A stretch of DNA of 34,180 nt, taken from a virus. Within the stretch, counting starts at the first letter, position 1. Every line of letters starts with the position of its first letter. Shown one piece after another: positions 2,744 through 34,180 of the stretch. The DNA lies in the IMG/VR virus record IMGVR_UViG_3300037961_001344, positions 1 through 34,180 of that record; one strand, given 5' to 3'. The translations under genes and the position numbers were made by a program. The notes under the pieces were generated by a model. That model saw only the letters and a program-made list of their open reading frames with translations, did no database searches and had not been told where the DNA came from.

Positions 2744-3270
2744 TATATTTGTTTTGTTATGCTATCTAATGAAATTTCTAATTCTACTGTCATTCCTTTC
2801 ACAATCTTACTGTGTATGCTATTTTTTCTTGAACCAAAAGGTCTAGTAGCAAATCCCCTTCTAAATCCGTTTCTTGAGAATCTAAAAGCACCCCTAGTTG
2901 GAGAGCCTTCGTCTTGTATTGCTTTCGCTATTGCAAATGCCAAAGCCTTGTCAGGATTTTTTGAGTTTGCTATTTTAGGATTATTTGACTGAATACCTCT
3001 TTGCTTAACCCAATCTTCTATTGCATATACACTAGGCAAAGATCTAGGTATAAAGCCATCGTTTATCGCAGATGCGTAATCTACCTCGTCTGCTAATACA
3101 GTAAGAGTAACGTTGCCACCAAACTCACTAATATTATATCCAATACTATCCCTAAGTCTGCCTGTATTAACGTGTCCTTGCCTTTCTAACTCTCCTCTTA
3201 TTGCAGCAACTAAGTCTATACCGACTTCAGTCAAGATTTCTCTCATTGTGGATTTACTAACTCTTGCCAT
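2743..3270 (-). CDS. HK97 gp10-like head-tail/tail completion protein
   Basis: 175 aa. The N-terminal helix followed by GHVNTGRLRDSIGYNI (around residues 32-47) is the typical signature of HK97-gp10-like neck/tail completion proteins, which act at the head-tail joint during assembly. The C-terminal third is rich in Arg, Phe and Gly (RGAFRFSRNGFRRGFATRPFG), as often seen in this family. It sits directly before the tape-measure gene (TAATG overlap) and one base below the lectin-like gene. Family assignment is by motif and context; its exact place in the virion is inferred. Confidence 0.65.
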   Translation of the reverse strand: MARVSKSTMREILTEVGIDLVAAIRGELERQGHVNTGRLRDSIGYNISEFGGNVTLTVLADEVDYASAINDGFIPRSLPSVYAIEDWVKQRGIQSNNPKIANSKNPDKALAFAIAKAIQDEGSPTRGAFRFSRNGFRRGFATRPFGSRKNSIHSKIVKGMTVELEISLDSITKQI

Positions 3271-6824: not shown

Positions 6825-9100
6825 TATTTTATAGTTCTTTTCTCTTTGCTTTCAACATAGTTTACAGTCATAGTAGATTGATTCTCGCTATCAAAACTTG
6901 TGGTAGTAGCATCTTTTATGTTTACAGGAACATAGTAGTATCTGTTTAATGTGCTATACCAACCACTTGTTGTAGGCAAATCGCTTACATACTCTCTAAC
7001 CACAATGTAGTCAACATATGATCTACCTGCTTCATTCTCGAAGTTTAAAACTACAATTGGAGCAAAAAACTCAACATTTTCGTGTGCGTTAGCAGGGTCT
7101 TTAGGATCGTTAGACTGTCCTTGAAAACTCTCTGTTGTTGAACCTGCTGACAATCTACCTGTTATATAACCTCTATGTACCTCCCATTCATCATCAGTTT
7201 CTTGGTTGTAGCCACTTAGCGTAATGTAGTGCTGAGATGTATGACTATCTACACCATTTGCATTTACAAGTGTCGTTCCGTCTGCTGCAATACCTGCTAA
7301 ACCAACATAGTTTTTAGCATCAGCGCTTTGACTCGCAACTTTTATCCTTACCTCAACCTCGTAAATTTTATTTGGATCGTAAGGAAACTTTTTAGCTTTA
7401 GCAATCGCCCAAAGCTCATCAACATCATCACTATTGTTGTTGTTTCCTTTTCTATAAGCACCTGAACCTGCTATATGTCCGTTTGTAGTTGTTATTGTAT
7501 CATCAGCTGCATCTTCCACAACGTTAGTCGAGCTAAATGTAGTCCAATCAGCCTGTAAAGCCGTGAGGCTATCAAAGTTATCTCTAAAAACCTCTTTGCC
7601 TCTCCAACCTCTTTCCACCCATACATTAGGAGATGATAGTAAATCTTCCATCATAGCCTGTTCTTTTCTTGGATAAGGTCTTGATACTGCCTGACCTTCT
7701 CTAAAGGCTTTCACAACGGATTTAGACACACCTCTGTATTCATCTGATGTCAATCCACCAACTCTAGGAACTAAAGCTCCATAATTGGACTTAAAGTTAG
7801 GTATATTACCATTCCAAAAATTATGATTGGTATCATTACCTGATAATTGGCTTTGGAAGTCAGGATATATAGTTTGCTCGTAAGTTTTAGAAGAAACATT
7901 TATACCCTCAGTAGCTGAACCATCAAAAGTGTAGCTATCAATACCACCCAATCTATTTTGCCAATGAAACCTTACTGATTCACCAAAATATTTTCTATCT
8001 TCTGACCTGTGGTCTATGTAGTAATATAAAGTTTGACCTATCTCTCTACTTTCATTTGATGTTAAAAACTTAACGGTATAGTATTCAATATTATGCCAAT
8101 CTCCAATCTTTGGAACACCATCTGCAGTGGTATTAGTCCAACCAACTACTGACTCCTTTATGTTTCTTGTTCCAACACCAAGTTGAAAAACTGCAAATTC
8201 AGGCTTGTTTGCATTAAAATCATTGTCAGAAGGAGAACCTCCCCAATGATAAACACCACCTGAAGAACTATAAGTGCCATTTCCTGCTGCTGAAAAATTT
8301 AAGTTTAAAGCTAGTGTTACGCCCTGCCCATTTGTAAGACCACCACCACCTTTAAGAAAAAACCTAATCTGAGCATAAGGGTAGTTCTCACCATCTCCGT
8401 TATCCATAATAGCAGTTAAGTATTCGCACTCATCAGTCCCTATTATCTTGTAGTTAGGTTTTAGCGTAAGGCATCTAGCTCTTTGAGTAGCGTTTTCTGC
8501 ACTAAAAGTAAATGCTTTTGACAGAGAGTTGTTTTGTTCTTCGGCTGAACTACTACCTATCATAGCATTAGACAATACTAAGCTGTGCTGTTCTTCGTCA
8601 GATAAAGCTACATTGGCAACAAAAATATTATCCACTATGTCTAAATCACTATCTGTAGCAAGACGACCACTAGAATTTACAAACTCAGGTCGCATACGAA
8701 CACTAAACTCCTTAAACATATGATAAGAAGGCATTGACTGAGTTATATCTCTTTGAACCTTAGTGGTGGTGTCGTGAGTACAAGCTCTTAAATCAAAAGA
8801 AAGGTAATCTCTACATATACTGCTTATATCTAAGCTGAAATATTTGTATGATACGCCATCGTTAGGTGTTGCATCATCACCCCAATTATGTATGCGTGGA
8901 CTTGGCTGAACTCTAATCGTTGATTGATTTTCATACTCATATTCATTAGTCCTAGAATCTCTAGGCGTTATTATAAACTGAACGCTTTTATAATCTTCTA
9001 ATCCTGATCCTGTAAGCCTTGTTGTAAATTTTATAGGCTCATATGCAGACATTATAACGGTGTCTTTTGGTGAGTCAATAAATTGCTGTGATACTGCCAT
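6824..9100 (-). CDS. Large structural protein, probably tail
   Basis: 758 aa. The start is MAVSQQFIDSPKDTVIM; the body is beta-rich and Asn/Gly/Ser-rich. There is a Gly-rich stretch with GGGGLTNGQG near 250. The segment FRDNFDSLTALQADWTTF (about 510-530), with the domain after it (KIYEVEVRIKVAS, YVGLAGIAADG), resembles a carbohydrate-binding-module jelly roll. No catalytic motif is visible. One-base overlaps with both neighbours place it in a coupled tail operon. It may be a tail-tip or side-fibre protein with a glycan-binding insert (inference). Confidence 0.5.
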   Translation of the reverse strand: MAVSQQFIDSPKDTVIMSAYEPIKFTTRLTGSGLEDYKSVQFIITPRDSRTNEYEYENQSTIRVQPSPRIHNWGDDATPNDGVSYKYFSLDISSICRDYLSFDLRACTHDTTTKVQRDITQSMPSYHMFKEFSVRMRPEFVNSSGRLATDSDLDIVDNIFVANVALSDEEQHSLVLSNAMIGSSSAEEQNNSLSKAFTFSAENATQRARCLTLKPNYKIIGTDECEYLTAIMDNGDGENYPYAQIRFFLKGGGGLTNGQGVTLALNLNFSAAGNGTYSSSGGVYHWGGSPSDNDFNANKPEFAVFQLGVGTRNIKESVVGWTNTTADGVPKIGDWHNIEYYTVKFLTSNESREIGQTLYYYIDHRSEDRKYFGESVRFHWQNRLGGIDSYTFDGSATEGINVSSKTYEQTIYPDFQSQLSGNDTNHNFWNGNIPNFKSNYGALVPRVGGLTSDEYRGVSKSVVKAFREGQAVSRPYPRKEQAMMEDLLSSPNVWVERGWRGKEVFRDNFDSLTALQADWTTFSSTNVVEDAADDTITTTNGHIAGSGAYRKGNNNNSDDVDELWAIAKAKKFPYDPNKIYEVEVRIKVASQSADAKNYVGLAGIAADGTTLVNANGVDSHTSQHYITLSGYNQETDDEWEVHRGYITGRLSAGSTTESFQGQSNDPKDPANAHENVEFFAPIVVLNFENEAGRSYVDYIVVREYVSDLPTTSGWYSTLNRYYYVPVNIKDATTTSFDSENQSTMTVNYVESKEKRTIK

Positions 9101-10257
9101 TATATACTATATTTATGTTTTAGGTAATCCGTTAGTGTTTTTATTTTAGCATCTTCAAGGGAACTTCCAAATATTATCACTTCCTGAATAGATCCTTTAA
9201 AAAATGTAGAGCTTCCTGAAACAGAAGAACCTAGTGTTAGTTTTGTTGACGTTCCATAATCAGAAAAACTATCAAAAGAAGGTGCTGATTCATTATCTAT
9301 CATTGTTGTTTCCTTGTATATCTTTGATGTTGTGTTGTTAAATGTGGCTACAAATATAGATAGAGTGTTTGATGAATATGAGCTGCTACTTACGCTAGTG
9401 TCATCTGTGTCGTCATCTGAGTGTGTTACTTGCCAAAAATTTGATGAATCTACATCTATATTAAATCTTTGAATTGAAGCGTTATCGTTTTTAGCTAAAA
9501 ATCTACCTTGCTGACTATCACTTTTGGCCACCCAAGCTATTGTATGATTTTTTGGTATTCCACTACCTGAGTTTATTCCACCGTTTACACAGCTCATAAA
9601 ATCATTACTACCATCAAAAAGAAGATAAGGGTAGTCGTTTTCCGTTATCTCATACTTGTATTGTGGCATCTTTATTGCTGTAGCTTGTTCAAAGTGATTT
9701 CCGTTACCACTTTGGTCTATCCACTTGCTTACAACCTCATTACCACCACTAAACGAAGTCTTAACACCCATATCGCTACGAAGCCAAACTAAAGGACTTA
9801 AATTAGTAATTCGTGGCTCATCTGTAAATGTAAATGAGTGTGAAAATGAGTTTAGAGTAAAACTAAGCCTGACTTGTATCAACTTGTCATTATATAGTTC
9901 TTTTTCTCGTTCAACAGATATACTGTCAGGACTTAATATTACTTCTTTGTTTGTATAGCTATCTAAAACTCTCTGTAACCAACTCAAAGCCTCTTGCTCC
10001 AATAATGTAAACACACTATCAAGAGAACCTGTTTGATTTTGATAGTATGGCTTAACTATTAAACACTCATAAGAATATTCTTCTTGAACATCTCCTTCTG
10101 TTGTAGGAAGAACTGATGTTGGTGGCAAAACCAATAACAATGGATAGTCGTTGTTGTGATTTTCATTTATTTCGTTTTCATAACCAAAAATAAAACCACC
10201 ATTTATCCATTTTTGCTCAAATCTATTAGTTAACTCTCTTAATTTATTAAAACTCAT
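9100..10257 (-). CDS. Tail-terminator-like protein fused to a C-terminal LamG-like domain
   Basis: 385 aa with two parts. Residues 1-150 have the make-up of a tail terminator/completion protein: an N-terminal helix, DYPLLLVLPPTSVLP, a conserved-looking LIVKPYY strand, then VQEEYSYE and a long helix. From about 153 a lectin-like domain opens with SPLVWLRSDMGV and continues with VSKWIDQSGNGNHFEQA and YPYLLFDGSNDFM, a form common in LamG-like domains of Bacteroidota and their phages. It closes near 370 with GSIQEVIIFGSSL. The gene begins within the end of the frameshift chaperone frame. A decorated tail-completion protein is unusual, but the domain boundary is clear in the sequence. Confidence 0.6.
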   Translation of the reverse strand: MSFNKLRELTNRFEQKWINGGFIFGYENEINENHNNDYPLLLVLPPTSVLPTTEGDVQEEYSYECLIVKPYYQNQTGSLDSVFTLLEQEALSWLQRVLDSYTNKEVILSPDSISVEREKELYNDKLIQVRLSFTLNSFSHSFTFTDEPRITNLSPLVWLRSDMGVKTSFSGGNEVVSKWIDQSGNGNHFEQATAIKMPQYKYEITENDYPYLLFDGSNDFMSCVNGGINSGSGIPKNHTIAWVAKSDSQQGRFLAKNDNASIQRFNIDVDSSNFWQVTHSDDDTDDTSVSSSSYSSNTLSIFVATFNNTTSKIYKETTMIDNESAPSFDSFSDYGTSTKLTLGSSVSGSSTFFKGSIQEVIIFGSSLEDAKIKTLTDYLKHKYSI

Positions 10258-10556
10258 TTTTTATTAACTTGTTTACTCTGTTCTTCTTGTACTGCCATCT
10301 CAAAGTCGCTTTTTGATGTTTTCCAAGATAAATATGTCATTACCTTATAAAACTTCTCATCTTTTACACTTTGTATTGCATCTTTACCGTTATTTGTAAA
10401 AATACCGTCTAAAGCTATGTCATATAGAGTGTTTAGCCAACCATAAGGCTTCATTATCTTACTAGCCTTTACTACTGCTATGCTTTTTGAATTGCCTTCT
10501 CTAAAAACGTTTGGATAACGTTTAGCGAGTTGATCGTTTGTCTGTTCAAAAAAAAA
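10254..10556 (-). CDS. Minus-one frameshift extension of the tail-assembly chaperone (gpGT-like)
   Basis: This frame, minus one relative to the upstream 214-aa gene, is open from before the T9 tract to 10254 but has no credible start: the only upstream option is a TTG inside the upstream gene. Slippage on the T9 run (minus-strand bases 10556 to 10548) joins the frames, giving a product of about 289 aa. The extension begins EQTNDQLAKRYPNVFREGN and ends SKQVNKK. In siphophages the longer product recruits the tape measure while the shorter one chaperones the tube protein. Here five structural genes separate it from the tape measure. Confidence 0.72.
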   Translation of the reverse strand, partial: FFFEQTNDQLAKRYPNVFREGNSKSIAVVKASKIMKPYGWLNTLYDIALDGIFTNNGKDAIQSVKDEKFYKVMTYLSWKTSKSDFEMAVQEEQSKQVNKK

Positions 10557-11122
10557 GCGAACTCCCAAACGATGTCCATTGTCAATCTCTTAAAAGCCTT
10601 AGCTTTTTCATCAATATTGTCTAAATCAACCTCCTCATCAACCGATTTACACAAAATAGCCATCTGTTCAGGTAAAACATCAAATCTACCATTCTTCAGG
10701 TACTCTGTATTCATTTCTAGCTGCGTACTCTCTATATATTCGCCAAAAGTCCCATCTCTAAAGAAATCCATAGGGAAATAGTAAATATCTCCTTCAAATT
10801 CAAAGTGAGTCAACCCTTTTGGCTTATATTCCTCTAATATGTTATCTAAAGAACTAATAACAGCTCCTATATCGTCAGTATTAACCCTTTTTACTTTTTC
10901 TTTACTCATTCCTGTCATATAACAAAATAATTCGTTATACATCTTAATTTCTTGAGTAAAAAAGAACTTAGCTAGGTCTTTACCCTCATCAGCCTTATCT
11001 TGTTCTTCAGTTCTCTTGTATTTTTGCAATATTTGATAAATACCACAATAATACTCAAGTGTCATTTCATTCCAATCGCTAGGAATTTCTTTTTCCTTGC
11101 CATCTATTTCTATTACTAACAT
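10478..11122 (-). CDS. Tail-assembly chaperone, short form (gpG-like)
   Basis: 214 aa, mostly helical and acidic. It opens MLVIEIDGKEKEIPSDWNEMTLEYY, the short beta hairpin and helix typical of tail chaperone starts in Bacteroidota phages, and ends in FAFFLNRQTINSLNVIQTF. The 3' end contains a T9 run that allows a minus-one frameshift into the overlapping downstream frame. It acts in the cytoplasm during tail assembly and is not expected in the virion. The start overlaps the end of the 135-aa gene by 7 bases. The assignment rests on gene position, size, helical content and the frameshift layout. Confidence 0.68.
   Translation of the reverse strand: MLVIEIDGKEKEIPSDWNEMTLEYYCGIYQILQKYKRTEEQDKADEGKDLAKFFFTQEIKMYNELFCYMTGMSKEKVKRVNTDDIGAVISSLDNILEEYKPKGLTHFEFEGDIYYFPMDFFRDGTFGEYIESTQLEMNTEYLKNGRFDVLPEQMAILCKSVDEEVDLDNIDEKAKAFKRLTMDIVWEFAFFLNRQTINSLNVIQTFLEKAIQKA
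10548..10556 (-). promoter_or_regulatory. Slippery T9 tract for programmed minus-one frameshift
   Basis: On the minus strand the sequence reads GCT TTT TTT TTG in the upstream frame. A minus-one slip gives T TTT TTT, with perfect re-pairing of both tRNAs. The downstream frame is open across the overlap and is the only way to express the 10254 extension. No clear downstream pseudoknot was worked out. Confidence 0.7.
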
Positions 11123-11523
11123 TCTAAATCTTTTTCTAGTTGTTCTTTGGCTTTCATATCAGAAACCATATCACTAAGTTCCCCTACTGCATCTAAAGTT
11201 GAATCAAGACATTTTCTTAACTCAAGCTCAAAATCAATGTACTCCTCCAACTTTTTTGTTCTTGCTCCTGTAATAAAACCCATACAAGCGTACAAAGACA
11301 AGTTTGGTATAATGTATAGCCACTCATCAACAGAGTCGCCATCTCCATTATCAATGAAGTCATTAGAGTAAGACACTATATGCTTCAAAATGTTATTAAA
11401 CTGCGAAAATTTTTCTATTGTTGTGTCGTGTTCCGTCATAACATAGATTCTTCTCTGTAAAAAACGCAAATGTCTTTTAACAATACGTCTATGATTGCTA
11501 TTCATACATTTTATATTTTTCAT
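11116..11523 (-). CDS. Hypothetical protein between terminase and tail chaperone
   Basis: 135 aa, not recognised. The first 28 residues are very basic (NHRRIVKRHLRFLQRR); the rest is acidic and helical, with a hydrophobic centre (EWLYIIPNLSLYACMGFITGA, about 68-88) and a final coiled-coil-like stretch (SDMVSDMKAKEQLEKDLE). A second in-frame Met (MTEHDTTIEKF, ATG at 11439) would remove the basic part. The ATG at 11523 has an A-rich leader with TTAAC, as in other genes here, so I keep the longer form. A hairpin (AAAAGTT/AACTTTT, 11550-11567) lies between it and the large terminase gene. Its position suggests an assembly role, without proof. Confidence 0.6.
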   Translation of the reverse strand: MKNIKCMNSNHRRIVKRHLRFLQRRIYVMTEHDTTIEKFSQFNNILKHIVSYSNDFIDNGDGDSVDEWLYIIPNLSLYACMGFITGARTKKLEEYIDFELELRKCLDSTLDAVGELSDMVSDMKAKEQLEKDLEC

Positions 11524-11593
11524 AATGCAAAAATTGTTAATTTATTTCTAAAAGTTTCGCAACTTTTGGTCAAACTTGTATTTTATACCCATT

Positions 11594-13021
11594 TTATCCA
11601 AAATATAGCACATTATTACCTGAAAAGTGCTTATTAAGAGCCATAACAAGACAATCTACCATATCATCGTGCTTTGCAGATGGAAATTGCTGACATTGTA
11701 GCAAAAACTCCTCGTTCCAATGCCCTTTGAGTAAAGATACCCTTCCTGTTTCTATACTTGCGCTTATGTCTTGAACTCTGGCAACCTTATCTTTTGTTGG
11801 TGGCTTATCATCTTTTACGTTTAGTCCTGTTTCTCTAATTAGTGTTTGAACTATTGATTTACCACTAGCTTTAGGTTCTACATATATTTTTGATTGATTG
11901 CTATATCCGTTTTTATGAACAAACTTCTTTATGTGTCTAATTAGGTCAGGAAACTCAAGTCTTACGTTTTGAACTTCTCTTATTTGCCATTTACCATCAA
12001 AAAATGTGTATGCCATCAATGCTGATGGGTCATTCTTCTGACTTGCTGTGTATGCAGGATCAATAACAAAGTTTACAACACCTTCTGTCTTTTCATTATC
12101 AATCTTAAACCAATTTTTCTGTATCATACCACTATCGGCAGGTGTTGGTCGCTGCTGTAGCTGTCCTGCGTAGCCATAAGAACCTAATGCTGACTTATAG
12201 TCGTCTAAAATCTCTTTACTAAACCTTTCTTTCCAAAAAAGTCCATCTTCATAGTATTTTGACAGCTCATAAGGTCTTAAATCTTCAGAAAGCTCGGCAG
12301 GTATGCAAATATGCTCGTGTTTATCAGGAGAATTGTATAAAAGATAACCACTAAGGTCGTCTTCGTGTACTCTCTGCATAATTATTATTCTAACCCCTGT
12401 TGTTGGATTGTTAAGTCTTGAATATAGTGTTGATTTATACCATTCGTTAGCATTATCCCTTTCTGTTTCCGATGCAGCGTTTTTTGGAGATGTTGGATCA
12501 TCTACAAGAATTATATCCCCACCCTGACCTGTAACAGAACCACCAACAGATGTTGCCCTTCTAACTCCTAGATGATTATTTTCGTATCTAGCTTTTAGGT
12601 TTTGGTCTTTTTTAATGTGAAATGTTTCTGACCAATGGCTTTGAAACCACTCGCTTTGTATTATATCTCTTGACTTTGTTGCGTGTTCTATGCTAATCTC
12701 TGCAGAATATGATGCTGTGATAAACCTCATCTTTGGATATACTGCCCAACACCAAGCAGGAAACATAACTGTTACTAATAATGATTTAGTGCTACGGAAA
12801 GGAATATTGATAATTATATCCTTGCCCTTTCTCTCTCCTCTGATTATTCTTTCTGCTTCTGCCTGTAGAATATCGCAAAGATATTTATGATGAAAATTTG
12901 TTGATAATGGTACTGATGGCTCTGCGATAGGAAAGGCTTTGACAAAGAACTCGTAAAATGACTTCTCGCATATAGCTTTCTCCATCGCCTTCAATAAGGC
13001 TTTCTTTTTGTCCTTATTCAT
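11594..13021 (-). CDS. terL: Terminase large subunit
   Basis: 475 aa, the DNA-packaging ATPase and nuclease that works at the portal. The N-terminal ATPase has a Walker A-like IPFRSTKS (about 73-80), the Walker B segment ILVDDP (171-176) and a coupling-region QRVHEDDLSG (216-225). The C-terminal RNase H-like nuclease has the first acidic residue in VIDPAYTA (Asp321) and the last cluster in HDDMVDCLVMAL (451-462). Length is normal for the family. It overlaps the small-subunit gene by 8 bases. The deviant Walker A (no classical GKS/T, but Arg-Ser-Thr-Lys-Ser) is common in terminases. Confidence 0.95.
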   Translation of the reverse strand: MNKDKKKALLKAMEKAICEKSFYEFFVKAFPIAEPSVPLSTNFHHKYLCDILQAEAERIIRGERKGKDIIINIPFRSTKSLLVTVMFPAWCWAVYPKMRFITASYSAEISIEHATKSRDIIQSEWFQSHWSETFHIKKDQNLKARYENNHLGVRRATSVGGSVTGQGGDIILVDDPTSPKNAASETERDNANEWYKSTLYSRLNNPTTGVRIIIMQRVHEDDLSGYLLYNSPDKHEHICIPAELSEDLRPYELSKYYEDGLFWKERFSKEILDDYKSALGSYGYAGQLQQRPTPADSGMIQKNWFKIDNEKTEGVVNFVIDPAYTASQKNDPSALMAYTFFDGKWQIREVQNVRLEFPDLIRHIKKFVHKNGYSNQSKIYVEPKASGKSIVQTLIRETGLNVKDDKPPTKDKVARVQDISASIETGRVSLLKGHWNEEFLLQCQQFPSAKHDDMVDCLVMALNKHFSGNNVLYFG

Positions 13022-13391
13022 CTACTTCTTCAAAATCCGTTTCTTCTGCCTCCATCTCCTCCATACGTTTTTTTAGGTCATCAACACTCATAGTATCATC
13101 TAATGTTATTTCTATTTTTGTGTTGCCACCTGTATTTATTTCCGTTGATTGAAGTTTGGGTATGGCATAGTTAAGAAGTTTTGCTACTGCACTAATATAT
13201 GCTTCAGGATTTTTTTCTGATAATTTTTCTAGTGCGTTCCTAATATTTTCTTCCTGACCTGCTAAAGCTAAAGTGAGAACCTCTCTTGAAAATTTTGTTA
13301 CTTTGTTTATAGAGCCTTTGGTTCTGCCTCCCATAACATTTCCAACTTGGAATGGTCTGCCAACAACCTTCTTCTTTTTTTCTTCTGCCAT
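13014..13391 (-). CDS. Terminase small subunit-like protein
   Basis: 125 aa from the ATG at 13391; a longer frame to 13406 begins at a non-ATG codon and looks spurious. The N-terminus is basic (KKKKVVGRPFQVGNVMGGRTKGSINKVTKF), the GRxxGxxNK pattern common in small proteins just before the large terminase in Bacteroidota phages. Two helices follow, including NYAIPKLQSTEI, then a very acidic tail (MEEMEAEETDFEEVDE). It probably recognises the packaging site and recruits the large subunit. A TATATTTG -7-like element ends only three bases before the ATG. Function is mainly from position and pattern. Confidence 0.72.
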   Translation of the reverse strand: MAEEKKKKVVGRPFQVGNVMGGRTKGSINKVTKFSREVLTLALAGQEENIRNALEKLSEKNPEAYISAVAKLLNYAIPKLQSTEINTGGNTKIEITLDDTMSVDDLKKRMEEMEAEETDFEEVDE

Positions 13392-13714
13392 ACGCAAATA
13401 TAACAAAAAAACCTTAACCTTATATTTAGCCTTATCTATAGCTTTATCTTTATTATGTAGGGTACTATATACCCTTGCCCAACCCTTAAACCTATAAAAT
13501 AGACTTTTAAAATTTTTTTTGTGTAATATGGGGGTCTGATTTTAGTTTCCTTCCAACTTTTGCGTAAAACTTTAATATCTAAACACTAACTTCGTAGCGT
13601 TCTTGCAACGTTGATTAAACGTACTCCAAATTAAAAATAATTCTATTCCTAAACAACATATAAAATTGGATTTCATTTTGTTGTGGTTGCATATATTTGC
13701 TTACCCCAACTTGC
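13392..13714. other. Non-coding spacer upstream of the terminase genes
   Basis: About 320 bases with no well-supported gene. It holds a hairpin-plus-purine-tract element (13441-13475) that resembles two others in the genome. Two weak minus-strand frames are present: 34 aa at 13572-13676 (MKSNFICCLGIELFLIW start) and 25 aa at 13618-13692 (MQPQQNEIQF start). Neither has a promoter or coupled neighbour. The late transcript probably begins here, and a packaging site could lie here, but I see no defined signal beyond TATATTTG at 13395-13402. Confidence 0.5.
13441..13475 (-). repeat. Hairpin plus GATAAAG purine tract, copy A
   Basis: On the minus strand a 6-bp stem (AGGGTA/TACCCT, 5-base loop, 13459-13475) is followed by ACATAATAAAGATAAAGC. 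The same layout occurs at 23801-23838 and, inside a gene, at 19433-19479. Here it lies about 50-85 bases upstream of the small terminase start. Confidence 0.55.
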
Positions 13715-13753
13715 AAAAAAAATTGACGGAAAATCTTGTGGAAATTCCGTCAA
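13715..13753 (-). terminator. Intrinsic terminator
   Basis: A perfect 9-bp stem (TTGACGGAA, 13723-13731, pairing with TTCCGTCAA, 13745-13753) is followed on the minus strand by eight T residues (13722 to 13715). It would stop the leftward transcript carrying the 61-aa, 365-aa and 33-aa genes before the terminase module. Confidence 0.85.
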
Positions 13754-13864
13754 AAGTGCGTTAAATTTGTGTTAATTTGTGTAATTCAAGAAAAAAATTA
13801 GCCAAATATTGCAATAAGTAACGCCAACAACAACCAAAGTATTGGCAAGGGTGCTTTATCAAAG

Positions 13865-13966
13865 TTAAAACCACGTGAAATGGATTTCCATTAAGAAACA
13901 AACTCCAATGATTATTGGCACACTTAATAAATAAAGAACGTCTTTTTGCTTTTGTGTTAAGTTCAT
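13865..13966 (-). CDS. Small single-span membrane protein
   Basis: 33 aa: MNLTQKQKDV, then a hydrophobic helix (LYLLSVPIIIGVCFLM) and EIHFTWF. It starts 28 bases after the 365-aa gene. Its leader (TATTAA, then a TTTAAAACATTACAAT stretch before ATG) closely resembles that of the 15910-16236 gene, which supports expression. Immediately after its stop, another frame encodes a second hydrophobic segment (NFDKAPLPILWLLLALLIAIFG, given in two parts: NFDKAPLPILW and LLLALLIAIFG). A plus-one slip at TTT-TAA would join the two. The function is unknown; a holin-like or membrane-perturbing peptide is possible. Confidence 0.5.
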   Translation of the reverse strand: MNLTQKQKDVLYLLSVPIIIGVCFLMEIHFTWF

Positions 13967-13993: not shown

Positions 13994-15091
13994 TTAATAG
14001 TCAATGTCTGATGTTAAAACAAAGTCGTTAACATTTCCACCGATATACGTTACATTTTCGGTAGCATACCAACAGCCGTCAATCTCGCTATAACTTGCGC
14101 AATCTTCACATCTGTACTCGCCTTCATCTTCTACATATATTCTATCGTCATCGTCAATGGGTGCGCCGCAACACTCACACTCCTGCTGCTCAACTTCCGA
14201 GAAACTACCACTAGTAGAATCGAGTAAATGTGTGCTGTCGCTTTCTTTGTCAATTGTTAGTGTATTGTCACACTCATTACCAAACTTGAATGTGTCCATG
14301 TAAGGCAAGTGATAAAAGTCAGTAAGCTCTGCGCCATCAATACTAACATAATCAATTGGAGGGCAATACCTACCACGAATGTTGTCAATCGTTATTTGTC
14401 GGAAATTAAATCCAAAAACTTTATTTTCCTTTGTATCAATGTTGTTCATTTTGATAATTTGCGAAATCATTGATTTGTATATGTCTAGCGATAAATTCTC
14501 GTTTTGTGCATAGGTGTAAATTCTATCAATGTAGATGCAATCTGAGTTTAGTCGATTTAATTTCCACACAAGGCAACGAGCCAATAAAGTGTCATTTTCA
14601 ATGATGGCGTACATCTTAACAGGTAGATGATTGAAAATCTCAAAGTAAGAGGTTGGTTTTTCTTGCATACAGGACATTGTCCCCAACAGGTGATTCTTCA
14701 TAGCGTATATGTCGGCTATGTCATTACCCTCGAAAACTTTTAGATTTATCTTTCTTAATGCAAATAAATTCTTTTTTAGTTCGTCAACTATTTTATGCAC
14801 TTTATAATCATCTGTGACAATCTCGTTAAAATGTTTATTGATAATCTTTTCAATCGTTGTATGATAAAAAAACTTTTTTCTTTGCGCTTTGTCAAAGGTT
14901 TTGCCTGTCATTTGGCCGTACTCAATAAGCTCATTTTGTCGCTTTTCGGTAGTGTAACTAATCTTTGTAAAATCGCTTTGACTAAACCCAAGTTTTATTG
15001 GGGTGCTAGTGTTGTAAGGTTTTTTAATATAGCCATCCTTCTGAATATCTTTGATGGCGTTGTTAAATAGTTGGTTTATTGAATTTTTCAT
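13994..15091 (-). CDS. Protein of unknown function with C-terminal zinc-ribbon
   Basis: 365 aa. The first 130 residues are basic and helical. The centre (KMYAIIENDTLLARCLVWKLN, then CIYIDRIYTYAQNENLSLDIYKSMI) resembles a recurring phage pattern, ARxLVWx...xxxDRIYTY, with a feel of acyltransferase folds; this is only an impression. The C-terminus has paired cysteines, CECCGAP and YRCEDC, in an acidic setting, as in zinc ribbons, and ends with WYATENVTYIGGN. The gene stands directly downstream of the parS site and the presumed origin, and upstream of the 33-aa membrane protein. Function unknown; it may bind nucleic acid or protein. Confidence 0.75.
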   Translation of the reverse strand: MKNSINQLFNNAIKDIQKDGYIKKPYNTSTPIKLGFSQSDFTKISYTTEKRQNELIEYGQMTGKTFDKAQRKKFFYHTTIEKIINKHFNEIVTDDYKVHKIVDELKKNLFALRKINLKVFEGNDIADIYAMKNHLLGTMSCMQEKPTSYFEIFNHLPVKMYAIIENDTLLARCLVWKLNRLNSDCIYIDRIYTYAQNENLSLDIYKSMISQIIKMNNIDTKENKVFGFNFRQITIDNIRGRYCPPIDYVSIDGAELTDFYHLPYMDTFKFGNECDNTLTIDKESDSTHLLDSTSGSFSEVEQQECECCGAPIDDDDRIYVEDEGEYRCEDCASYSEIDGCWYATENVTYIGGNVNDFVLTSDIDY

Positions 15092-15108
15092 TTTTGATAG
15101 TTTTTAGA

Positions 15109-15124
15109 TGTTTCACGTGGAACA
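15109..15124. promoter_or_regulatory. Exact parS (ParB-binding) site
   Basis: The minus strand reads TGTTCCACGTGAAACA, identical to the 16-bp consensus parS described for Bacillus subtilis Spo0J/ParB, which is conserved across most bacterial phyla. It lies in the 34-base gap between the 61-aa and 365-aa genes, in the leader of the latter. No parA or parB gene is visible in the whole genome, so host ParB would be the likely binder (inference). Confidence 0.85.
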
Positions 15125-15125
15125 A

Positions 15126-15311
15126 TTAATAAGTTAAATTTGTTTCTAGTAGTTTGATTAGGTTTACATCAAATGGAATACTTGATAATGTTTCAGGCTT
15201 CACTAGATACAACCAATGCTCATATCCATAGTCATTTTTTTCTAGTAAGTCACCTAGTTTAGCAACTCCGTTGTAATCTGAGTACCTGTCGAATAATTGT
15301 AATAAAGTCAT
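15126..15311 (-). CDS. Small hypothetical protein
   Basis: 61 aa, MTLLQLFDRYSDYNG start, acidic to neutral, soluble, with the segments AKLGDLLEKNDYGYEHWLYL and IPFDVNLIKLLETNL. No family is recognised. It is the first gene after the presumed origin and has its own well-formed promoter 31-61 bases upstream, so it is probably expressed early or constitutively. The parS site follows its stop codon by one base. Confidence 0.65.
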   Translation of the reverse strand: MTLLQLFDRYSDYNGVAKLGDLLEKNDYGYEHWLYLVKPETLSSIPFDVNLIKLLETNLTY

Positions 15312-15557: not shown

Positions 15558-15608
15558 CTTTATTTGCATATGTCAAAAATAATTTGTAAAGCTAGTTGGT
15601 GTACAAAC

Positions 15609-15686
15609 TACACTAAGGTAAGTGTACAACATACACTAAGGTAAGTGTAAAAGCTACACTAAGGTAAGTGTAAGAACTACACTAAG
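15609..15686. repeat. Palindromic iteron array, 23-bp period
   Basis: Three full and one partial copy of TACACTAAGGTAAGTGTA, starting at 15609, 15632, 15655 and 15678 (exact 23-base spacing); the last keeps only TACACTAAG. Each full copy is a perfect dyad, TACACT/AGTGTA around AAGGTA, and the 5-base linkers vary. The conserved core with variable linkers points to selected protein-binding sites, such as an initiator or repressor. Confidence 0.9.
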
Positions 15687-15704
15687 ACCAAACATAACCC
15701 TATG

Positions 15705-15770
15705 GCAGTCCCCTAGCAGTTACTTGGCAGTTTCTTGGCAGTTACTTGGCAGTTACTCAGCAGATACTTG
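15705..15770. repeat. Six tandem 11-bp direct repeats
   Basis: Unit GCAGTTACTTG, six contiguous copies at 15705, 15716, 15727, 15738, 15749 and 15760. The second and fourth are exact and the others have one to four changes, the first being the most diverged. An 11-base period places each copy on the same DNA face, as in replication iterons. It directly precedes an AT-rich stretch. Confidence 0.9.
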
Positions 15771-15825
15771 GTGCTTTGTTTTAAATATTTTTTTATAATC
15801 AAAACATAAATAAAAATAATAACAC

Positions 15826-20373: not shown

Positions 20374-20688
20374 TTAAAAGGGTAATCCATCATCTTCAGC
20401 AACAGTTTGTTTAGGTTCAGGCTTTGTTGTAGCACCTACGTTTACTGCCCAAGCTAAAATGTTGTTGTAATAGTTTCCTTCATACAGACGGCCTCTAATA
20501 TCTATCTTACAAGTAACCTCTGTTCCAACAGGAATTGTATCTATCTTCTCAATGTTATCTTTTACGACTTCCATTTTGATTAGCTGTGGATATTCTCCAC
20601 GTGTGTTTACTACAAACTCCTTCTTTCTGAAGCCACTTGAAAATTCTTTTGTTTCAAACTTAGCTTCTAATATTCCATTAATCTCCAT
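20374..20688 (-). CDS. DUF3127-like ssDNA-binding protein
   Basis: 104 aa. An OB-fold-like layout: MEINGILEAKFETKEFSSGFRKKEFVVNT, a QYP-like element (EYPQLIKMEV), IDTIPVGTEVTCKIDIRGRLYEGNYYNNILAWAVNV, matching DUF3127 of Bacteroidota. It ends AEDDGLPF, an acidic tail with a terminal Phe like that of SSB proteins, which recruits other repair or replication factors. It lies between the DnaA-like and nuclease genes, with a 11-base overlap upstream. It likely serves as the phage SSB (inference). Confidence 0.78.
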   Translation of the reverse strand: MEINGILEAKFETKEFSSGFRKKEFVVNTRGEYPQLIKMEVVKDNIEKIDTIPVGTEVTCKIDIRGRLYEGNYYNNILAWAVNVGATTKPEPKQTVAEDDGLPF

Positions 20689-21100
20689 AATTAAAATTGT
20701 TTTTGTTGTTTATTATTTTAAGTTCATTTTTAATTTCATTCATTCTATCTTCGATAATCATTTTTTCTCTATTAAGGCAGTCAAACTCGTCTTGAATATT
20801 TAGGAAAGTCTTTTCCTCAAACACCAAATCTCTTATGCTTATGTACCTTCTCATTTCAGCTTTATCAAATTCAAGATAGCCTAAAAGTTTTCTTTCGTGA
20901 TGAATCACAGTTGCGTGATTAGCACCAAACATATCTGCTATGCTAGTGTATGTTTTATTAAAATGCTTTCTAGCAAAGAAGTAAAACATTCTTCTAGCAC
21001 CAACCACCTCCATCTTCCTTGACTTGCTGTGGAGTTCAGAAGGTGTTATGTTGTAGTGCTTACAAACAGCAGACTTAAGAAGCTCCATTCTAAAGCTCAT
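20678..21100 (-). CDS. Orphan DnaA domain IV-like DNA-binding protein
   Basis: 140 aa. Residues 8-75 match the C-terminal DNA-binding domain of DnaA: VCKHYNITPSELHSKSRKMEVVGARRMFYFFARK, the Arg pair (36-37), YTSIADMFGANHATVIHHERKL (51-72), where GANHATVIH corresponds to the GRDHSTVIHA signature. No AAA+ domain is present, so it is not a replicase initiator by itself. The rest (about 90-140) is a charged coiled coil, probably for dimerisation. It could bind DnaA boxes at the phage or host origin, to direct replication or block the host. The gene overlaps both neighbours. Confidence 0.85.
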   Translation of the reverse strand: MSFRMELLKSAVCKHYNITPSELHSKSRKMEVVGARRMFYFFARKHFNKTYTSIADMFGANHATVIHHERKLLGYLEFDKAEMRRYISIRDLVFEEKTFLNIQDEFDCLNREKMIIEDRMNEIKNELKIINNKNNFNYGD

Positions 21101-33283: not shown

Positions 33284-34180
33284 CTAAAAAGTAGCCTGAC
33301 TTTCAATAGCAGATACTTTGCCTTGTGTTTTTGTTACATCACTTTCTACCATCACAACTCTTTGAGATATTTGTGCTTGAGAAACAATACTTTGAATGTC
33401 AGGTAGCTGACCACCTCTAGCAAACTTCTCTCCACTATTCAAAATACCACCATCAGCAAACTTAACACCATTACCGTTATATGAGTTTATGGCAGAAAGA
33501 ACAGGTTTAAACATAGATGTAGAACGCTTGTTTATGATAGCCTCCCCACCTTCTGCCTCCATTATTCTGCCACCTACTGCAAACTTTACACCACCATTAG
33601 CGTGTGAGTTTCCTTTAAACATTCCACCTTTAGTAAGACCACCTTTAGCAAATTGACCACCCTCTGTTACAGTCCTAGAATCTCCACCACCAACACCACC
33701 AATACCAAACATAGATAAGGCAGAAACTACTGCTGCAAGTGTTGCTGCAATAGCTGCTATGTTCATTGGGAAAAGTTGTTTTGACTGTTTAGCAACACCT
33801 GCAGCTCCATCTGTCAACGCTTCCTTTGCATTTGCTAAAGCTTTTATCTTTGAAGAAGCAGCTTCTATATTGTTTGCTAATGTAGCAGCTTGAGATAACT
33901 TGATTCCTATTTTAGTAAGTATGTGATTCTCTCCCATAATCTCACCAAGACTTTTCATTTCTGAACCTAAATTACTAACCTCGCCAACAGTTTCTTGAAA
34001 CCTTTGTCTTTGAATAAGACCTAACTCTCTTTCGGTATCTTTTATTTTAATATATATAGCCTCATAGTCTGTAGCGTATTGATCGTGCAAATCAAGTTTT
34101 TTTCTTAAAAACTCAAGCTCTGCCTGAAGCTGCAGACCTTTCATAATTGCATCAGAAGTACCTGCATCTGCAAGTTTTTG
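33284..34180 (-). CDS. Tail tape-measure protein, C-terminal part
   Basis: This is the end of the 1168-aa protein whose start is at 2743; the frame continues through the circular join. It has a charged coiled coil (MKGLQLQAELEFLRKKLDLH), then two helical stretches, a hydrophobic segment (MNIAAIAATLAAVVSALSMF) and a Gly-rich, repeated tail with FAKGG, GGVKFAVGG, EAEGGEAIINKRST, VKFADGG and KFARGG. Such GG repeats and GGEAIINKRST are typical of tape-measure C-termini. The segment is not a separate gene; the Met at 34144 is internal. Confidence 0.92.
   Translation of the reverse strand, partial: QKLADAGTSDAIMKGLQLQAELEFLRKKLDLHDQYATDYEAIYIKIKDTERELGLIQRQRFQETVGEVSNLGSEMKSLGEIMGENHILTKIGIKLSQAATLANNIEAASSKIKALANAKEALTDGAAGVAKQSKQLFPMNIAAIAATLAAVVSALSMFGIGGVGGGDSRTVTEGGQFAKGGLTKGGMFKGNSHANGGVKFAVGGRIMEAEGGEAIINKRSTSMFKPVLSAINSYNGNGVKFADGGILNSGEKFARGGQLPDIQSIVSQAQISQRVVMVESDVTKTQGKVSAIESQATF
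34048..34180. repeat. Terminal duplication, right copy
   Basis: This is the second copy of bases 1-133, with T at 34103 where the left copy has C at 56. It shows that the molecule closes into a circle of about 34,047 bases. Confidence 0.93.

Follow-up and report, generated by a model that had tools for sequence, protein, structure and literature searches.

The window, by which we mean the whole 34,180-nt stretch of viral DNA analysed here, carried an exact chromosomal-type parS site in a phage genome where neither ParA nor ParB was detected. The arrangement is known, though little noted, and the window adds a new example to it, private to this phage. We give about an even chance to the reading of a functional chromosomal-type parS that was recently gained as a sporadic accessory element, as in many unrelated ParB-less phages, and that recruits the host ParB. 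The features on which the analysis rests are the following.

15109 to 15124, minus strand: exact chromosomal-type parS, TGTTCCACGTGAAACA (TGTTTCACGTGGAACA on the plus strand), from the motif scan and chance expectation
15092 to 15125, no strand: 34-nt intergenic gap containing parS; the homologous gap of relatives is without parS (ORFs and gap comparison)
15126 to 15311, minus strand: 61-aa ORF upstream of parS, with homologues in close relatives and no family match
13994 to 15091, minus strand: 365-aa ORF downstream of parS, kept in relatives, with a Cys4 stretch near the C-terminus; function not assigned
15599 to 15686, no strand: 23-bp repeat in 3.8 copies, iteron-like, in a non-coding region of about 600 nt; common to the closest relative
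15716 to 15771, no strand: 11-bp repeat in about five copies; similar sequence in several relatives
11594 to 13021, minus strand: terminase large subunit, starting about 2.1 kb downstream of parS
13014 to 13406, minus strand: 130-aa ORF in the place of the terminase small subunit, with PHROG matches of unknown function only

We examined the sequence and the setting of the site, for which a first-pass annotation had claimed an exact parS between genes and next to iterons, in a genome encoding no partition proteins. These descriptive claims held. The minus strand of 15109-15124 matched chromosomal parS at 16 of 16 positions, the plus strand fitted TGTTYCACGTGRAACA as well, and this 16-bp match places the site among those of chromosomal type; in the whole 34,180 nt it was the sole match at up to three mismatches. 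The 34-nt gap, at 15092-15125, was flanked by two co-directional ORFs of the minus strand (61 aa and 365 aa). The repeats were real, both the 23-mer (3.8 copies, 15599-15686) and the 11-mer (about five copies, 15716-15771), and lay about 0.5-0.65 kb from parS in what may be the replication origin. When the six-frame translation of the window was searched, no match was obtained to ParB (TIGR00180; ParB_N, PF02195) or to a ParA-type AAA_31 ATPase (PF13614). The window phage does not carry a self-contained ParABS cassette, with parA and parB on the same replicon; with its exact parS and no ParB of its own, it is in this respect of the phi29 type of solitary parS.

The record is probably a complete phage genome, because its ends (1-133 and 34048-34180) form a near-exact direct repeat of 133 bp with one mismatch; the database classes it as linear despite this repeat. 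Nearly all genes were found on the minus strand, and the window encodes a portal, a Clp-type head protease, a holin, lectin-like proteins and a PDDEXK nuclease, the ORF at 13014-13406 being by its position the putative terminase small subunit. At 20678-21100, the window encodes a protein of 140 aa in which the C-terminal DNA-binding domain of DnaA was recognised (PF08299, E 1e-18). No integrase was present among the ORFs scanned, and no lysogeny or plasmid-maintenance gene indicating a long-lived state was found among the window genes. The nearest cultured relatives of the large terminase belonged to Croceibacter, Chryseobacterium and Cellulophaga phages (37-43% identity), with one sewage phage besides, and the Bacteroidota-type promoter-like sequence TTTG-N17-23-TAnnTTTG was seen seven times compared to three expected, six of the seven on the minus strand. 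From these terminase relatives and promoter-like sequences, the host is likely a member of the Bacteroidota. A scan of bacterial genomes for a host with parS and ParB led to a single distant match, in Halanaerobiaceae.

The comparison with related genomes showed that, in its close family, the window phage is the sole carrier of parS. The site was absent, at up to two mismatches, from all 36 related records and 22 further ones, together about 57 distinct contigs, most of which have terminases at least 82% identical to that of the window phage. In the same way, the homologous gap was without parS in 13 of the 13 relatives where it was readable. The closest relative, of 34,454 bp, with a terminase 99% identical and a 365-aa protein 70% identical, has the gene set of the window and a well-aligned flank, and lacks the site. 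Exact parS was present in two far relatives, L337 and L339, whose terminases are 28% and 37% identical. The absence from the related contigs indicates that the family does not need parS, and since the relatives have the iteron-like repeats and not the site, parS does not belong to the repeat region as a constant component. We therefore rejected parS as a conserved replication or partition part of this family, in view of the close relatives that keep the flanks without it. The conservation that the first-pass annotation had suggested checking was thus not observed, and of what it had named as counting against its proposal, the first half, a site missing from relatives with conserved flanking genes, is what we found. 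The likeness to plasmid partition loci that it had drawn is weak: relatives have the repeats without parS, and most of the sites examined in other phages are found close to structural or packaging genes, or else within terminal repeats. Retention in close relatives is not a strict property of the phi29 type, and in other families, too, some members carry the site and others lack it.

We then estimated how often such a site would arise by chance. The expected number of exact consensus matches in the window was 2.4e-5 with a first-order Markov model and 3.0e-5 from base composition. The density of parS in viral DNA was measured in 266 loci (2.39 Mb) fetched without reference to parS, with 200 composition-matched palindromes obtained by half-site shuffling as controls. 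The loci contained four exact and three one-mismatch sites, whereas the control palindromes averaged 0.005 for exact sites and 0.1 for sites at up to one mismatch. The parS count was reached by none of the 200, and those approaching it were one-letter variants of parS. The exact-site density corresponds to about 0.06 sites per 34-kb genome (about 6% of genomes), roughly 2000-fold above the chance expectation for the window. On these odds a real site is favoured, although striking motifs may have been selected in the scan as a whole.

Searched for the exact 16-mer, the viral collection yielded at least 119 stretches with parS. Two control 16-mers of equal composition gave 1 match each; however, a third, AT-richer one gave 103, so that the raw count includes background and is not decisive. 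We dropped it as proof and used instead the intergenic and multi-copy statistics and the unbiased density test with its 200 controls. Among the matches listed, parS was intergenic 31 times compared to 10.8 expected (AT-richer control, 5 compared to 5.8), and a second copy within one mismatch accompanied 14 of the 119 parS loci and none of the 103 control loci. A clear ParB was encoded in 3 of the 99 parS-bearing viral records among the matches listed, with two more below threshold. The clustering of site-bearing related contigs was also discarded as evidence, since the control motif clusters too, owing to conserved coding sequence. A bacterial source is possible for some of the parS-bearing contigs, and these were left out of the phage evidence. 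One of these, L053, has 11 exact sites within 5 kb (8906-13878), 65% GC and no clear ParB match; it is possibly a bacterial origin region and not phage.

With these numbers, we consider it unlikely that the 16-mer of the window is a functionless coincidence. Such a coincidence would agree with a site private to one phage, with an overall scan that covered many motifs in many windows, and with the background revealed by the 103 matches of the AT-richer control. However, it has to reconcile about 2e-5 expected in the window with the approximately 0.06 sites per genome that the unbiased exact-site density gives, and the window site is intergenic, the place where the parS excess occurs.

Exact sites were also found in cultured phages. 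Four copies of TGTTTCACGTGGAACA are present in phi29 (L287), at 10445, 15903, 17243 and 18760, the window site being on the other strand, and three copies of TGTTTCACGTGAAACA in Butyrivibrio phage Arian (L273), at record positions 3256, 7380 and 24825. Roseobacter phage DSS3P8 has three exact sites, B103 and Lactobacillus phage Bacchae two each, Pseudomonas phage phiPsa315 two, one per terminal repeat, and Chryseobacterium phage MA9V-2 one. The ParB_N domain was absent from phi29, B103, Arian, DSS3P8, Bacchae, phiPsa315 and MA9V-2. Two of the three Arian sites are intergenic in the structural region, in the gap between the portal and head protease genes and beside the major tail protein. Seven Otagovirus phages of Pseudomonas syringae (MT670419.1 (L274), at 391-406 and 98601-98616, and L277-L282) carry, in the terminal repeat, a 16-mer identical to that of the window, with differing bases directly adjoining it; three other P. 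syringae phages are without the 16-mer and the record PE09 stops short of the place. We found no published description of this Otagovirus terminal-repeat parS, and no paper having solitary phage parS as its topic. In a portal-linked family, the site lies in a coding region and reads TGTTTCACGTGGAACA in L073 (peptide VSRGT) and TGTTCCACGTGAAACA in L119 and L099 (VPRET). These sequences suggest selection on the DNA motif and not on the protein, because the mirror form of parS is kept while the peptide changes. The pattern across phages is one of sporadic presence with exact retention where the site is present, and the window fits it.

A separate terminase family, sampled without regard to parS, had the site at up to one mismatch in 5 of 80 loci, including one already known from the parS scan, and in all five the distance to the large terminase gene, which is downstream, is 0.3-1.3 kb. 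In several members of this family, parS follows a small-terminase-like gene, in either orientation and with diverged flanks (members with parS at this distance: L086, L094, L128, L026, L076, L127, L193, L200, L208 and L267). More generally, 14 sites were within 1 kb of a terminase compared to 9.4 expected (p ~0.04, the related contigs not being independent), and we rejected a special parS-terminase link as anything beyond a tendency. These positions bear on a local effect, in which ParB clamps nucleating in the leader of the 365-aa gene would modulate or silence transcription of the operon that follows, as far as the terminase genes. The window site, in a 34-nt gap between co-directional genes and upstream of both the 365-aa gene and the terminase region, would suit such an effect, as would the five sites of the separate family, and PMC5521831 reports that raised ParB represses parS-adjoining promoters in P. 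aeruginosa. However, the same gene order occurs in relatives without parS, elsewhere the site is found within genes, next to portal and tail genes, or in a terminal repeat, and the closeness to terminase is weak overall, so that we hold a local effect to be an improbable explanation of the site.

The preferred reading, a functional parS that recruits host ParB, has a molecular basis in the known behaviour of the protein. ParB-CTP nucleated at parS closes as a clamp, slides on to the adjoining DNA and engages ParA (PMC12704722). Upon infection, host ParB-CTP would nucleate on the phage parS, close as a clamp and then slide on to the phage DNA. The phage genome would thereby be tied to the host ParA/nucleoid system and perhaps to SMC, which ParB also loads. 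This tie could position the phage genome, or keep it in dividing cells during a slow or stalled infection, comparable to the action of Spo0J on phi29 in sporulating Bacillus. There, according to PMC9437464, which cites Meijer et al. 2005, the host Spo0J traps the phi29 genome in the spore. Because spore entrapment could not operate in a Bacteroidota host that does not sporulate, any benefit to the window phage would have to differ from that to phi29; it may lie in keeping the genome during slow infection, in positioning it, in the control of nearby genes or in titration. By analogy, we infer that host ParB would bind the window site, and a benefit in the positioning or retention of the phage genome is plausible. 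The borrowing of host ParB, already proposed in the first-pass annotation, gains from the rarity of the motif, its excess in phage DNA, the unrelated phages alike in this respect and the phi29/Spo0J case; overall this proposal is partly supported, the site being private. The relatives without the site, about 57, and the single site compared to four in phi29 count against a functional parS, as does the lack, noted above, of any gene found that would point to a long-lived state.

The site might instead act as a decoy, replicated phage genomes titrating host ParB and upsetting host chromosome segregation. A replicating phage can provide many copies of the site, and solitary sites without ParB fit this idea, but one site per genome is a modest sink, many of the phages found here have one to three, and the sequence offers no specific support; we judge a decoy quite unlikely. 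A stable phage-plasmid prophage that host ParB partitions and that replicates from an origin at the 15599-15771 repeats seems very unlikely, since, for all the iteron-like repeats about 0.5-0.65 kb from parS, the encoded DnaA C-terminal-domain protein and the lack of a detected integrase among the ORFs scanned, the repeats are common to relatives without parS and no plasmid-type replication initiator or lysogeny repressor was confidently identified in the window.

Recruitment of host ParB by a recently gained parS, if correct, would extend beyond this phage. The published case that we found of a phage using host ParB is phi29, explained there by spore entrapment, and our observations suggest that the solitary-parS arrangement is wider than that case. 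Exact sites in Pseudomonas, Ruegeria, Lactobacillus, Butyrivibrio and Chryseobacterium phages, together with the window phage, suggest a wider viral use of the host segregation machinery. Tentatively, and at somewhat less than an even chance, solitary parS would be a common, repeatedly gained phage accessory across many bacterial phyla, present in about one genome in 20. By means of it, phages that are not lysogenic would exploit host ParB in settings other than sporulation, for instance in anchoring, positioning or retaining their genome, and the window would be a recent gain in a Bacteroidota phage. Several parS-bearing phages and their hosts are cultured, which makes this reading open to direct test.

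Compared to known systems, the window site is identical to the 16-bp consensus of chromosomal ParABS (Soj/Spo0J-parS of B. subtilis and relatives), but it stands alone in a genome without parA or parB. With the ParABS cassettes of P1, N15 and the mycobacterial extrachromosomal prophages, it shares a centromere-like site on an extrachromosomal element; these elements, however, bring parA and parB genes along with sites specific to them, whereas the window phage has neither gene and a site of the chromosomal type. The resemblance is closest to phi29/Spo0J, with an exact chromosomal parS, no phage ParB and the identical 16-mer (TGTTTCACGTGGAACA in phi29). The number of sites differs, four in phi29 and one in the window phage, multiple sites per genome being a property of phi29 and not a general one, as MA9V-2 also has one. 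The host differs too, being probably a non-sporulating member of the Bacteroidota, for which entry into the spore cannot be the benefit, and the role of host ParB is known for phi29 and proposed for the window phage. The P. syringae Otagovirus phages have the identical 16-mer as well, phiPsa315 being without a ParB_N domain, but their site is at the genome ends and kept in seven relatives, whereas that of the window phage is internal and private.
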